A stretch of DNA of 64,000 nt from a virus, in the IMG/VR virus record IMGVR_UViG_3300012228_000001, positions 1 through 64,000 of that record; one strand, 5' to 3'. The position numbers and the translations under genes are program-made. Below, piece by piece: positions 1,713 to 63,367 of this stretch. The notes beneath the pieces are model-generated. The model did no database searches and was not told the origin of the DNA. It saw nothing but the letters and a program-made list of their open reading frames with translations. Numbering within the stretch: the stretch's first letter is position 1; the number at the start of each line of letters is the position of its first letter.

Positions 1713-2543
1713 TTATTTTATCGCCTTGAGTTTATTAGCCTGCTCTTTCAAGGATCGTCGACGTTCGTTCTCTTGATGCAATTCGTCATCGGTTTTCTCA
1801 AGCGTCGGTGTGACTTCGTTTTCAACCTTCATCGCACTTGGCGCACTTTTAACGAGCATTTCCCGATTAGCGATCAACTCGGCAAGCATCGCTTGCACTC
1901 GCTCGCGCTCGTCAACCGTTGGCGGCGCTTCGCTAGGCATAGGTTTGTTGAGCGGCGCGATGCGCAACGCCGGATCGGACACGCGCCGGTCGGGACCGTC
2001 GAGTTTGATTATCTCACCCATTTCGAGCAAGCGTGACGCAAGCCGGTCGTCGATGTTAGCAGCGACTTGATCCAACGATAAATTACTTGTGACGATCACC
2101 GGCTTCATGTTTCGATAACGCCGGTCAATCACTAGAAAAAATTGCTGCCGTGACCACTCTGAAACTTTCTCCACTCCAACGTCGTCAAGCGACAACAGCG
2201 GTGCCGACGTATATCGAGCAATTATATCGCGCTCGTTAAGCGTCTGTGAATCGAAGCTGGATTTTAACTCCGCAAAGAATTCGACAGACGGCACGAACAG
2301 CGGTGTTTGCGGTTCATTCAATTTGGCCCATAGCTTCAACAGCCCGACCGCCATGTGCGTCTTGCCGGTGCCGCATTCACCCGTGATAAAAACACTCAAA
2401 CCGTTGCTGATCGCCGTCGCGGCTTTCTCGACTTGCTTTTCATAGCCTCGCAGGTCGCTCAATTCTTTCAGCAAAAAACGTTTCGGGATGCCGATCTTAT
2501 CCCAAGTGTGAATACTTTCCTGGCGCTGGTTTGATTCCGCCAC
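1713..2543 (-). CDS. DnaC-like helicase loader ATPase
   Basis: A 276-residue AAA+ protein with Walker A GECGTGKT at residues 55-62, Walker B LLSLDDVG at about 116-123 and a sensor-like VIVTSNLSL near 150, followed by an RLASRL segment typical of DnaC/IstB ATPases. Such proteins load the replicative helicase onto single-stranded DNA at the phage origin. The C-terminal 80 residues are charged and coiled (ending EQANKLKAIK), longer than in E. coli DnaC. It overlaps the end of the organiser gene by 47 bases, reproducing the lambda O-P or DnaD-DnaC gene order. No replicative helicase gene is visible here, so it probably recruits the host's. A transposase-type IstB is unlikely without an IstA partner. 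Confidence 0.88.
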   Translation of the reverse strand: MAESNQRQESIHTWDKIGIPKRFLLKELSDLRGYEKQVEKAATAISNGLSVFITGECGTGKTHMAVGLLKLWAKLNEPQTPLFVPSVEFFAELKSSFDSQTLNERDIIARYTSAPLLSLDDVGVEKVSEWSRQQFFLVIDRRYRNMKPVIVTSNLSLDQVAANIDDRLASRLLEMGEIIKLDGPDRRVSDPALRIAPLNKPMPSEAPPTVDERERVQAMLAELIANREMLVKSAPSAMKVENEVTPTLEKTDDELHQENERRRSLKEQANKLKAIK

Positions 2544-3210
2544 TATCCCCCCCTGTCTTGTTTTTGTTGTTAGTCGGGTACACGTCGGTCCAGTTTGATC
2601 GAGTGCTTTTTTCCAGAACTTCGTTAGGCTCTTCTCCCAATGCCTTTAGCCTCGTCAACTCTTTCACGATCAAAGCTAACGCATGATCGCCGTTTTTAAC
2701 TCGCTTACTTGACCGCATTTTCAAATAATCGTTCCACGTTTCAGGATTGATCCAATTCGGAATTTCAAACGTCGCATGTTCCGACATGCGGCTCTTATTC
2801 TTATTCTTCTCTTCTTCTTTAGTTTGTTTAGTTATGGTTAGGTTAGGTTGGTTAGGAGGGGAGCCTAAAAGTTCCGGTTTAGGCTCCCTAGTTCTGTGAT
2901 AATTCCAATAATTAGCTATAAATAGCCCACCCTCTACGGGTGCCAACCACCCTTGAAGCAGCATCCAAGCGAGGGCGCTACGGGCTTGCTTCAACGCTCC
3001 ATCAAGCCTCATAGACAGGCTTACGCGGATCATATAACCGGCGATCTGCTCGTGATCGCCTTTGATAATTCCGTTGTTTCTGTCGCCAATTGACAGCAAT
3101 TCTAACCATGCAAATCCCATCCAATCACCAAACTTTTTTCGCAAATCTCGCATTTCGGGATCGTGATTTAGATCATGGCTCACGGGATGAAATCTCCTAA
3201 TTTTCGGCAT
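2497..3210 (-). CDS. Phage replisome organiser / replication initiation protein
   Basis: The 237-residue product opens with a winged-helix-like region (KIRRFHPVSHDLNHDPEMRDLRKKFGDWMGFAWL, then IAGYMIRVSLSM) and an AWMLLQGWL helix, the pattern of N-terminal DNA-binding domains in phage DnaD/O-like initiators. A charged linker (EEEKNKNKSR) leads to a C-terminal helical part (NWINPETWNDYLKMR) that in such proteins contacts the helicase loader, encoded immediately downstream. The ATG lies ten bases after GAGGA, and that site is part of the structured leader annotated separately. It should bind an origin, perhaps within this module, and start replication together with the DnaC-like protein. The family assignment rests on layout and position, not a catalytic motif. 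Confidence 0.7.
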   Translation of the reverse strand: MPKIRRFHPVSHDLNHDPEMRDLRKKFGDWMGFAWLELLSIGDRNNGIIKGDHEQIAGYMIRVSLSMRLDGALKQARSALAWMLLQGWLAPVEGGLFIANYWNYHRTREPKPELLGSPPNQPNLTITKQTKEEEKNKNKSRMSEHATFEIPNWINPETWNDYLKMRSSKRVKNGDHALALIVKELTRLKALGEEPNEVLEKSTRSNWTDVYPTNNKNKTGGDSGGIKPAPGKYSHLG

Positions 3211-3224
3211 CCAAACAAATCCTC

Positions 3225-3315
3225 AACAAGCCCCACCGCGCAGGGGTGGACTCCCTGGATTGTTGCCAATCAGACGCCGACTTTGCGCCGGGATCGCCCC
3301 GCAGTGAGGCTTGTT
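3225..3315 (-). ncRNA. Structured leader RNA of the replication operon (candidate)
   Basis: Read on the minus strand, the leader is closed by an 8-bp stem (AACAAGCC with GGCTTGTT, positions 3315-3308 and 3232-3225). Inside are CGGG-GCGAT-CCCG (3301-3289), GATTG-GCAA-CAATC with a GNRA loop (3271-3258) and CCACC-N7-GGTGG (3249-3233). The bases TGAGG at 3225-3221 are the ribosome site of the replisome-organiser gene and can pair with CCTCA at 3309-3305. That pairing overlaps and competes with the closing stem. This is the architecture of a translational switch. An alternative hairpin CAGGG/CCCTG overlaps the last stem. No known riboswitch class was recognised. Confidence 0.45.
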
Positions 3316-3360
3316 CAAAATTCTTTGGATTGAATGAAACAGTCCACGTCTCATGCTCTA

Positions 3361-3389
3361 GGATTACGCTCAAAATAACCCACTGTCAA
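3361..3389 (-). promoter_or_regulatory. Putative sigma70-type promoter for the replication operon
   Basis: On the minus strand a perfect TTGACA (3389-3384) is followed after 17 bases by TAATCC (3366-3361), a weak -10. Transcription from here would start near 3354 and yield a leader of about 140 bases containing the structured RNA. The rest of the 3211-3441 gap holds no gene that I can support. Confidence 0.4.
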
Positions 3390-3441: not shown

Positions 3442-3672
3442 TTAGTTGCTCTTATCTCGCAGCACCGTCCGGCAAAATGGACAGACAATTTCATTCACAA
3501 TTACGATTTGAATACTGACTGTTATCGCGCAGTGACAGCGCACGCATGACAGCATGAGTTGCCCGCGAGGCTGGCCGTAGTCCAAATTTGCTACCCCGTA
3601 AACTTTATGATCGTGGTAGCTTTCGTTCGACGGCCAATGCTCACGGGCAACTTGAGAGAGTCTTTTTAGCAT
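3442..3672 (-). CDS. Small zinc-ribbon-like protein, 76 aa
   Basis: The product carries two cysteine pairs, CVRCHC near residue 43 and CPFC near 67, the spacing of a zinc ribbon, separated by a hydrophobic strand pair (AITVSIQIVIVNEIV). Such small phage zinc ribbons usually bind nucleic acid or host proteins, and no specific role is evident. It is the last gene before the gap that holds the leader of the replication operon and ends 52 bases upstream of that operon's promoter. Confidence 0.65.
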   Translation of the reverse strand: MLKRLSQVAREHWPSNESYHDHKVYGVANLDYGQPRGQLMLSCVRCHCAITVSIQIVIVNEIVCPFCRTVLRDKSN

Positions 3673-3678
3673 GAACTA

Positions 3679-4077
3679 TTACGCGGCGTTTTCGCCGTCG
3701 CCGCCGCTGCGCCTTCGGCTTCGTCTGGTCGCCGCCGTTGGGAACAACTGGATTTGCCGCTCCGCGCTTGTCATCGCCCGCTCGCTGATTTTCTCGTTGG
3801 TATCCAAGCGCCAAACTTCAACCATGAATGTGTCTTCGTTGCGCCGCTCTTCGATCTCCACGTCGCGGTATTCCTGTCGGCTCGAAATAGCCTGCGATAG
3901 ATCGGCGATCTTGATTTTCGATTCTTTGATCTGCTTGTTGTAATTGGACGACTCGGCGCTCTTCTTGGTCTCCAATTGCACGCGGTCGATCTCGGCTTTC
4001 GCCAAGTCGTCGGAGCGTGAGCGCAGTTCTTCATCGCTCAAGCGCACTGGTAAATTTCTTGTCATTTTGTCCGGCAT
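3679..4077 (-). CDS. Coiled-coil phage protein, 132 aa
   Basis: The N-terminal segment LPVRLSDEELRSRSDDLAKA followed by heptad-like charged helices (EIDRVQLETKKSAESSNYNKQIKESK) predicts a coiled coil, with a short strand region (DTFMVEVWRLDT) and a basic C-terminal tail (TRRSRRRSGG). Proteins of this layout are widespread in phage early regions, without known function. Spacing of six bases to the following zinc-ribbon gene and one base to the preceding gene places it in the operon. Confidence 0.65.
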   Translation of the reverse strand: MPDKMTRNLPVRLSDEELRSRSDDLAKAEIDRVQLETKKSAESSNYNKQIKESKIKIADLSQAISSRQEYRDVEIEERRNEDTFMVEVWRLDTNEKISERAMTSAERQIQLFPTAATRRSRRRSGGDGENAA

Positions 4078-61926: not shown

Positions 61927-62457
61927 ATGAATCCGAGAATCGCAAAACTAAAAACATACAAGGGCATCCCGATTGTTTTCTTCGCGACAATCGACAAGAA
62001 AGGCATTCCAGATTTCAAAGTAACCGACGAAGAGAAGCGGATGCGCTGCGGCAAGGAACATCTGTGCTGGATTTGCGGCGAACCGCTCACCATGCCGATC
62101 TGCTTTATCGGCGGGCCGCACTCGGTTGCGCAAGGAACTTTTACCGATGGCCCCATGCACGCCGAATGCGCCGCCGACTCAATGGAAATGTGCCCGTGGC
62201 TTTTGGGACGCATGGACTATGCGCCGCCTGAATCGTTCAAGATGGACCGGCACAACAGGCCGGTGCGGTTTGTGACTGGTGCGGCGAGACCGGAAATGGT
62301 CAAGTCGCCTGACCGTGTTGCGATCTACAAGTGCTTGGGGTTTGACATACTAATCTTGCCGCTACAAGGCGGGCGCTGCGCTTGGTTCTTCAAAGCGTTC
62401 ACTGCGCTATCCGTAGATTTTCGGGATCGGATTGCGCCAACTGCGAAAACAGCATAG
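61927..62457 (+). CDS. Conserved phage zinc-binding protein, 176 aa
   Basis: CWICGEPLTMPICFIGGPHSVAQGTFTDGPMHAECAADSMEMCPWL matches a family of small phage proteins with CxxC, H and AEC..C residues, zinc-binding. Function unknown. It converges with the sigma-like gene, overlapping it by 59 bases. Confidence 0.65.
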   Translation: MNPRIAKLKTYKGIPIVFFATIDKKGIPDFKVTDEEKRMRCGKEHLCWICGEPLTMPICFIGGPHSVAQGTFTDGPMHAECAADSMEMCPWLLGRMDYAPPESFKMDRHNRPVRFVTGAARPEMVKSPDRVAIYKCLGFDILILPLQGGRCAWFFKAFTALSVDFRDRIAPTAKTA

Positions 62458-63367
62458 CCATCCGATCCAATACAAATTCCTGATAGGCTTCCGGGTAGCC
62501 TCTCTTACTAGCGTTCTCAAGGCGGGCTAGGTTCATCAAGAATCTTTCTTGGTTGGACCTGCCGCCTTGGAACGCTTTTTTTATGTCCGGTTTCCGGTTC
62601 AATTTCCTGATCGCGTCTTTCGCGATTGCAAAATCATCGAACACCCGCGCCACCCCTATCCCAAGCTTCTCCGCAATATCCCGGTAACTCATGTTGTCGA
62701 CGGTTTTCATTTTGTAAATTTTAAGCTGCCGTTTGGCGAGACTCACATTTTTCCAAGTCGTGCGCGTCTTCTCTTTTTTCTTCAACTCGTCACGGGCGTC
62801 TTTTAGCTTGATGTTGAATTCTTTTTCAATCTCGTCAAGCAAGTGATCGCGCTGCGATAGCGCGTATGCCTGCTCCATCATGCTTTCAATGCTGTTATTT
62901 TCGTCGGGGAGTGTTTCTGGTACTTCGGTGACTTCTGGAAAGCGGTCAATAATTTTCTGGCGCTGCTCGTCGGTTACTTCCCTATGGATCAAGTCGTATA
63001 ACGTCCGGGTGCCCGTCATGCCGTGCCCGCGCTCCCATTGAAGATGCTTCAAGATACCGAACTTGATCGACGGCCTGATAAAATTCTCAATCGGCCCCGA
63101 CTTTGGAGTATAGCGTCGCAACGCATGCAGGGCTTCGTGCATGCCAGCTTCGGCGGCGTCGTCGAACGATTGAAAGTGAACCCCTTTGGCTTTCTGATAC
63201 GCGACGCTGATCGCCGACCATCTTTCGATATTGGGATAATGCTTCTCAAACAGTTTTTTCACACGCGGTGGGAACTTCGTGTTGCGATTATAGCCGCTGA
63301 CCAAGCCGGTCCTGCGCCTGTATCCGCGCACGCGCTGAAAAGCCTTAACGCAGATCGCTATTATCAT
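62399..63367 (-). CDS. Sigma70-like transcription factor, 322 aa
   Basis: It has a region-2-like AAEAGMHEALHALRRYTPKSGPIENFIRPSIKFGILKHLQ and a region-4-like helix-turn-helix (NMSYRDIAEKLGIGVARVFDDFAIAKDAIRKL). Together these suggest a phage-encoded sigma factor or sigma-like recruitment protein for late or middle promoters. Length and spacing differ from host sigma70. It overlaps the upstream minus gene by four bases. Confidence 0.65.
   Translation of the reverse strand: MIIAICVKAFQRVRGYRRRTGLVSGYNRNTKFPPRVKKLFEKHYPNIERWSAISVAYQKAKGVHFQSFDDAAEAGMHEALHALRRYTPKSGPIENFIRPSIKFGILKHLQWERGHGMTGTRTLYDLIHREVTDEQRQKIIDRFPEVTEVPETLPDENNSIESMMEQAYALSQRDHLLDEIEKEFNIKLKDARDELKKKEKTRTTWKNVSLAKRQLKIYKMKTVDNMSYRDIAEKLGIGVARVFDDFAIAKDAIRKLNRKPDIKKAFQGGRSNQERFLMNLARLENASKRGYPEAYQEFVLDRMAMLFSQLAQSDPENLRIAQ

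Follow-up and report, generated by a model that had tools for sequence, protein, structure and literature searches.

Which kind of element occupies the strongly folded segment directly preceding the replication initiator gene in this phage genome, and how might it act on that gene? The segment lies within the first 64,000 nucleotides (hereafter, the window) of a 103,292-base IMG/VR virus record. A sequence-only reading had described it as a multi-hairpin leader with a switchable ribosome site and had suggested control by a ligand or a protein.

All features listed in Table 1 are encoded on the minus strand, and the leader is followed, at decreasing coordinates, by the genes for an O-like replication initiator and a DnaC-like helicase loader. 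The replication genes are adjoined by a gene with a DUF5131 domain (PF07505; 823–1710, minus strand). Within the O gene, the region 2790–2890 contains CCTAAC-type repeats, an 11-bp perfect inverted repeat (2859–2888) and an AT/purine-rich stretch, features reminiscent of a lambda-type origin inside O. We found no phage integrase (PF00589) in the 103-kb record; therefore, a lysogenic life, and hence 'immunity', is unproven for the phage of the window.

Table 1. Coordinates of the leader features and of the adjoining replication genes in the window
Feature	Position	Strand	Basis or remark
TTGACA, possible -35	3384–3389	-	Sequence; the -10 would be a weak TAATCC, 3366–3361
5' hairpin A, AUGAGAC-GUGGACU-GUUUCAU (seqA / c4-a1b1-like target)	3334–3354	-	Fold; equivalent hairpin in relatives
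Loop a, GUGGACU	3341–3347	-	Exact complement of 3246–3252
Outer helix P0, 5' strand (linker between hairpin A and core)	3317–3330	-	Fold
Core element, candidate C4/CI-like RNA	3225–3315	-	Closing stem and three hairpins; z -4.8; R3 match
Closing stem P1, 5' strand	3300–3315	-	Fold; pairs with 3225–3240; homologous stem pairs kept in relatives
Hairpin 1, with AUC bulge	3272–3299	-	Fold
Hairpin 2, GAUUG-GCAA-CAAUC	3258–3271	-	Fold
Hairpin 3, CAGGG-AGUCCAC-CCCUG; holds family motif GGGAGU(N)CACC	3241–3257	-	Fold
Loop a', AGUCCAC	3246–3252	-	Complementary to 3341–3347; pairing covaries in relatives
Closing stem P1, 3' strand	3225–3240	-	Fold
Outer helix P0, 3' strand (most of Shine-Dalgarno and AU of start codon)	3209–3223	-	Fold; pairs with 3317–3330
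Shine-Dalgarno GAGG, 10 nt 5' of ATG	3221–3224	-	Sequence
O-like replication initiator, 237 aa, controlled gene	2497–3210	-	phrog_678 'replication initiation O-like', E 1.9e-15
DnaC-like helicase loader, next gene	1713–2543	-	phrog_50, E 1.1e-46

Fold of the leader and burial of the ribosome site

Folded as minus-strand RNA, the 91-nt core element (3315–3225) has a minimum free energy of -50.4 kcal/mol (z -4.8), and none of its shuffled versions was equally stable. Across both strands, 12,782 segments of equal length were scanned, and none reached this stability. The plus-strand version is weaker (-38.4 kcal/mol), because the non-Watson-Crick pairs are G-U pairs in the sense RNA. The structured leader is thus genuine and strand-specific, a feature at the RNA level in the sense of the O gene. 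The end stem, previously described as 8 bp long, is present (AACAAGCC/GGCUUGUU) and actually extends over 16 bp; the GNRA-capped hairpin (hairpin 2) and the two additional hairpins that had been noticed are likewise found in the minus-strand fold. Neither a tRNA nor a tmRNA was detected, and no second copy of the element was found in the genome.

The proposed switch fared differently. CCUCA (3309–3305) is exactly complementary to UGAGG (3225–3221), and this pairing and the closing stem are indeed mutually exclusive. However, a fold forced to include the pairing is about 22 kcal/mol worse, which makes such a switch unlikely. Rather than being switched inside the closing stem, the ribosome site is buried by the outer helix P0 (3330–3317 : 3223–3209), in which AGG and the A of AUG have a probability of being unpaired of only ~0.01. 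In the model, opening the stretch from the Shine-Dalgarno sequence to AUG costs 13.5 kcal/mol. A thermosensor was considered and rejected, as the modelled ribosome site remains largely closed at temperatures up to 60 C. The TTGACA hexamer is present where it had been reported (3389–3384), but the -10 sequence TAATCC is weak, and the site is absent from our promoter scan, which demands a better -10. A 43-codon open frame (3223–3354, minus strand) spans the leader, and its TGA stop codon overlaps the Shine-Dalgarno sequence of O.

Upstream of the core, hairpin A carries loop a (3347–3341), all seven nucleotides of which are complementary to loop a' of hairpin 3 (3252–3246). This match was spotted by eye and its statistics were calculated afterwards: complementarity of at least 7 nt between hairpin loops occurred in 15 of 5000 dinucleotide shuffles and in one of 5108 window segments. 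A C4-like fold of the window leader with a' unpaired lies just 2.5 kcal/mol above the minimum, so that segment a' could be available for pairing. A 14-nt inverted repeat (3331–3344 and 3484–3497, minus strand) is predicted to break hairpin A in read-through transcripts. In agreement with the 86% complementarity of its two halves, the hairpin is predicted to be displaced in a transcript started at 3680, its pair probability dropping from 0.94 to 0.07. Such displacement suggests that the leader may not work the same way in read-through transcripts as in those started locally.

Other structured regions were also observed. Positions 3558–3654 of the minus strand form a 97-nt hairpin (-48.9 kcal/mol, z -7.2) that is even more unlikely than the core element. 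It has no Rfam match above threshold. A short CxxC...CxxC open frame (3442–3672) has an in-frame ATG at 3555, directly after the hairpin, which may be another structured leader or may belong to a longer coding frame. The possible 37-aa zinc-finger-like protein starting at this ATG (3442–3555, minus strand; MLSCVRCHC...CPFCRTVLRDKSN) is encoded directly upstream of the leader and has only weak PHROG matches. Of the 91-nt segments in the fold scan, the most extreme after correction for composition is 62511–62601, a strong hairpin on both strands that lies within the coding sequence 62399–63367 (minus strand).

Relatives of the leader and covariation

Protein searches with O, DnaC, capsid and ATPase sequences (IMG/VR, GTDB) gave no close relative usable for the leader, and a pattern search with the N-terminal O motif had no match. 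A DNA pattern with the loops of the window produced 39 matches, none of which had the leader structure on inspection. The leader family was discovered through weak co-located matches of R1, a covariance model derived from the window element alone, in Erwinia phages Stean and PEp14 (E 0.026 and 0.063, respectively). In both phages the match falls into an intergenic stretch of ~275–290 nt, ahead of genes leading to an O-like gene.

The relatives identified comprise Erwinia phages PEp14, Stean and Pavtok, Pantoea phage PdC23, Pseudomonas phage Orisa03 and two IMG/VR contigs (L064 and L067). In Stean, PEp14 and Pavtok, the hairpin loop CGUG(NN)AC is followed downstream by GGGAGU(NN)CACC, with the two NN matching each other. 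All seven relatives share a 5' hairpin and then a complementary AGU(NN)CACC within a long stem, Orisa03 having AGAGU instead of GGGAGU. The distance from CACC to ATG is nearly fixed: exactly 37 nt in every relative and 34 nt in the window. The closing stem is directly followed by T6-7 in all seven relatives, whereas the window has CUUGUUGAGG there instead; we do not hold the T run as defining for the family, because the window has the other features. A second complementary pair, b/b', spans 8–11 nt in the relatives and is strong in PdC23, L064 and Orisa03. In the window it comprises only 5 nt, a length at chance level (1177 of 5000 shuffles), and is not evident. The element precedes a gene for the anti-repressor Ant in PdC23 (phrog_63, E 2.5e-52), and genes for an HNH endonuclease and then a DNA helicase in L064. 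The terminator-like stem had no Rfam match in the relatives scanned. The one-N version of the motif revealed no further leader among the matches listed (at least 120) in IMG/VR.

Alignment of homologous leaders, which had been suggested as a check of the structure, revealed that both stem pairs and a/a' pairs are kept by compensatory changes. The a/a' helix can form in all six aligned members (100% of cells paired), and two of its seven pairs are changed on both sides. This double change, GA/UC versus AG/CU, separates Stean from Pavtok and also L064 from Orisa03; judging by these sequences, the switch arose within two groups of close relatives. For the closing stem together with three CCC/GGG pairs, 95.5% of cells are paired across four members and five pairs are double-changed (0 of 500 shuffles). 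Compared with its relatives, the window leader is one base shorter at matching places in both segments, CGUG-G-AC being complementary to the corresponding part of GGGAGU-C-CACC. There is a single instance of this two-part motif in the window, against none in 100 shuffles; GGGAGU(N)CACC alone is likewise present once, with 0.03 occurrences expected.

A further covariance model, R3, was built only from PEp14, Stean, Pavtok and PdC23, with the window excluded. Its sole match in the window (3227–3313, minus strand) scores 23.4 bits (E ~0.001 for 64 kb, both strands). The held-out L064, L067 and Orisa03 score ~51 bits, 80 unrelated viral loci (690 kb) gave a single match of 25.2 bits, and nothing was found at E 1e-5 across 369 bacterial genomes. 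The score of the window is modest; therefore, similarity beyond structure was tested with structure-preserving decoys having permuted pairs. None of 3000 decoys reached the mean sequence similarity of the window to five members; this result depends heavily on the Erwinia phages, of which two came to light through the window's own model. The similarity to PdC23 alone was reached by 228 and that to L064 alone by 141 of the 3000 decoys. Overall, R3, the decoys, the genomic position and the loop complementarity make it very likely that the window element belongs to the same leader family as those of PEp14, Stean, Pavtok, PdC23, Orisa03 and L064.

Comparison with C4 and P4 CI RNAs

No Rfam model matches the leader, in line with the earlier remark that no known riboswitch motif is recognizable, and yet its layout is of a known kind. 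Neither RF01695 (C4) nor RF03163 (c4-a1b1) matched the window or the relatives tested, even at permissive E-values. With the same search, the CI RNA of P4 and the c4 of P1 scored 74.9 and 68.8 bits against RF01695 (gathering threshold 45 bits). The upstream piece of P4 (seqA region) matched RF03163, the model for the C4 target, just under threshold.

In the P4 leader, a hairpin loop CGUGAGAA (seqA) and then UUCACAGG precede a downstream structured RNA with CCUGUGAA and UUCUCACC. The CI RNA of P4 is processed out of its leader transcript; by pairing with seqA and seqC it brings about premature termination of replication-gene transcription (PMC4825925). The window leader resembles this system in having an upstream target hairpin and a downstream structured RNA with a complementary a', and in its link to replication-gene control (PMC4825925). 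The arrangement is also shared, with a and b before the closing stem and b' and a' after them, although b and b' are convincing in the relatives rather than in the window. In contrast to P4, the stem of the window family ends ~20 nt before the start codon, with T6-7 in the relatives; moreover, neither Rfam model recognizes the window or its relatives, and b/b' is weak in the window. We found no convincing copy of a seqC-like second target, and none near the Shine-Dalgarno sequence of the window; a partial copy of the target (2720–2743, 71%) is found farther away, inside the O coding sequence.

The c4 RNA of P1 blocks the anti-repressor mRNA (PMC12197685); its a' sets target specificity, and RNase P makes its 5' end (PMC5320573). 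By analogy, RNase P processing at the window leader is a candidate parallel only. The long closing stem, the inner hairpins and the pairing segments are shared with P1/P7 C4, and the PdC23 copy precedes an anti-repressor gene, the type of gene under c4 control (PMC12197685, PMC5320573), although RF01695 does not match the window element. IsrK of Gifsy-1, described as a structural homolog of the P4 SeqA RNA (PMC4825925), is similarly a short phage RNA heading an operon, but the Rfam isrK model has no match in the window.

The window leader thus has the layout features of C4/P4 CI, namely, a long closing stem with inner hairpins and an a' complementary to the upstream loop a. It also has their position, before O and the helicase loader in the window and before Ant, HNH and helicase genes in relatives. 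Because layout and position are shared but RF01695 and RF03163 do not match, we call the leader, by analogy, a variant of the C4/P4-CI kind in layout and position, not in Rfam sequence profile. Our preferred reading, which we consider reasonably probable, is that it represents an antisense control element of the C4/P4-CI type, in divergent form, placed ahead of the replication initiator gene. The idea of a structured leader controlling the initiator is supported. No ligand or protein has to be invoked, an antisense RNA with its target hairpin just upstream being the best comparison.

Proposed mechanism and alternative readings

Under the antisense reading, one transcript would carry the upstream target hairpin (a) and then the long stem with the complementary a'. 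We infer that termination or processing releases the stem RNA and that this RNA, through a' (and b'), binds the target hairpin on transcripts made later. Such pairing in trans would shut the replication operon, keeping early genes off, and the RNA might confer immunity. In the relatives, the long stem ending in U6-7 would itself be the terminator. In the window, the T run is lost and the linker between target and core pairs with the Shine-Dalgarno–AUG region instead, so that the element would act mainly on O translation. The loss of the T run and the buried ribosome site suggest that control there is probably translational.

Some of these observations may be accounted for without a released antisense RNA. 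In a purely cis-acting leader, kissing loops a and a' would compete with P0 within one mRNA, and a protein (e.g. O) or a ligand would tip the balance to expose the ribosome site. The deep burial of both the Shine-Dalgarno sequence and AUG, the presence of target and antisense within the same transcript and the near-fixed distance to ATG are consistent with this scheme, as is the energy of the 7-bp loop duplex (about -9.7 kcal/mol versus 13.5 kcal/mol to open the site). Nevertheless, we consider it rather unlikely, since the close parallels, P4 CI/seqA and P1 c4, are antisense RNAs, the two-base a/a' switches resemble the changes in pairing specificity expected of immunity RNAs, and no conserved unpaired core resembling a ligand pocket is seen across relatives. 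It is also conceivable, if doubtful, that the leaders arose independently of C4 and form an RNA class of their own. They would then be kissing-loop attenuators that target themselves, set at a near-fixed distance from the start codons of early phage genes; their two-base loop code would define immunity groups, and the window version would have been converted from transcription termination to ribosome-site burial.

Translation of the leader itself seems quite improbable as the means of control. The 43-codon frame (3354–3223) does end at the Shine-Dalgarno sequence, and a ribosome translating it could unfold the leader; however, the frame starts within the hairpin A stem and lacks a good Shine-Dalgarno sequence, short open frames are frequent by chance, and the relatives are conserved as RNA structure. 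An element acting as DNA, either an origin or a single-strand initiation hairpin, would fit a strong inverted repeat adjoining the O and helicase-loader genes. Such a role is highly improbable given the strand-specific pairing with G-U in the sense RNA, the lack of iterons around the leader and the near-fixed distance to ATG, and given that the element of the relatives is followed by T6-7 and stands before genes for Ant or for HNH and helicase. Equally hard to credit is activation of translation by the small CxxC...CxxC protein (3442–3672), as Com of phage Mu activates mom. The likeness lies in the zinc-finger-like spacing and in the gene order, with the small protein just upstream of a leader with a buried ribosome site, and CC(N)2-3GAG, the Com SELEX motif (PMC6483171), has three separate sites in 3180–3365 (~0.2 expected). 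However, that motif test was made after the fact, and the small protein has no sequence relation to Com and matches no curated family.

Few phage immunity systems rely on RNA instead of a repressor protein, and C4/CI-type RNAs belong to these few. On the antisense reading favoured here, the leader RNAs probably allow the phage to silence early genes of its own. An Rfam-invisible branch found before anti-repressor, helicase and replication-initiator genes of different phages suggests that annotation underestimates how common such RNA control is. Thanks to the two-base covarying loop code, the specificity of pairing can be tested directly. The window member suggests a route from a terminator-type to a translational element.
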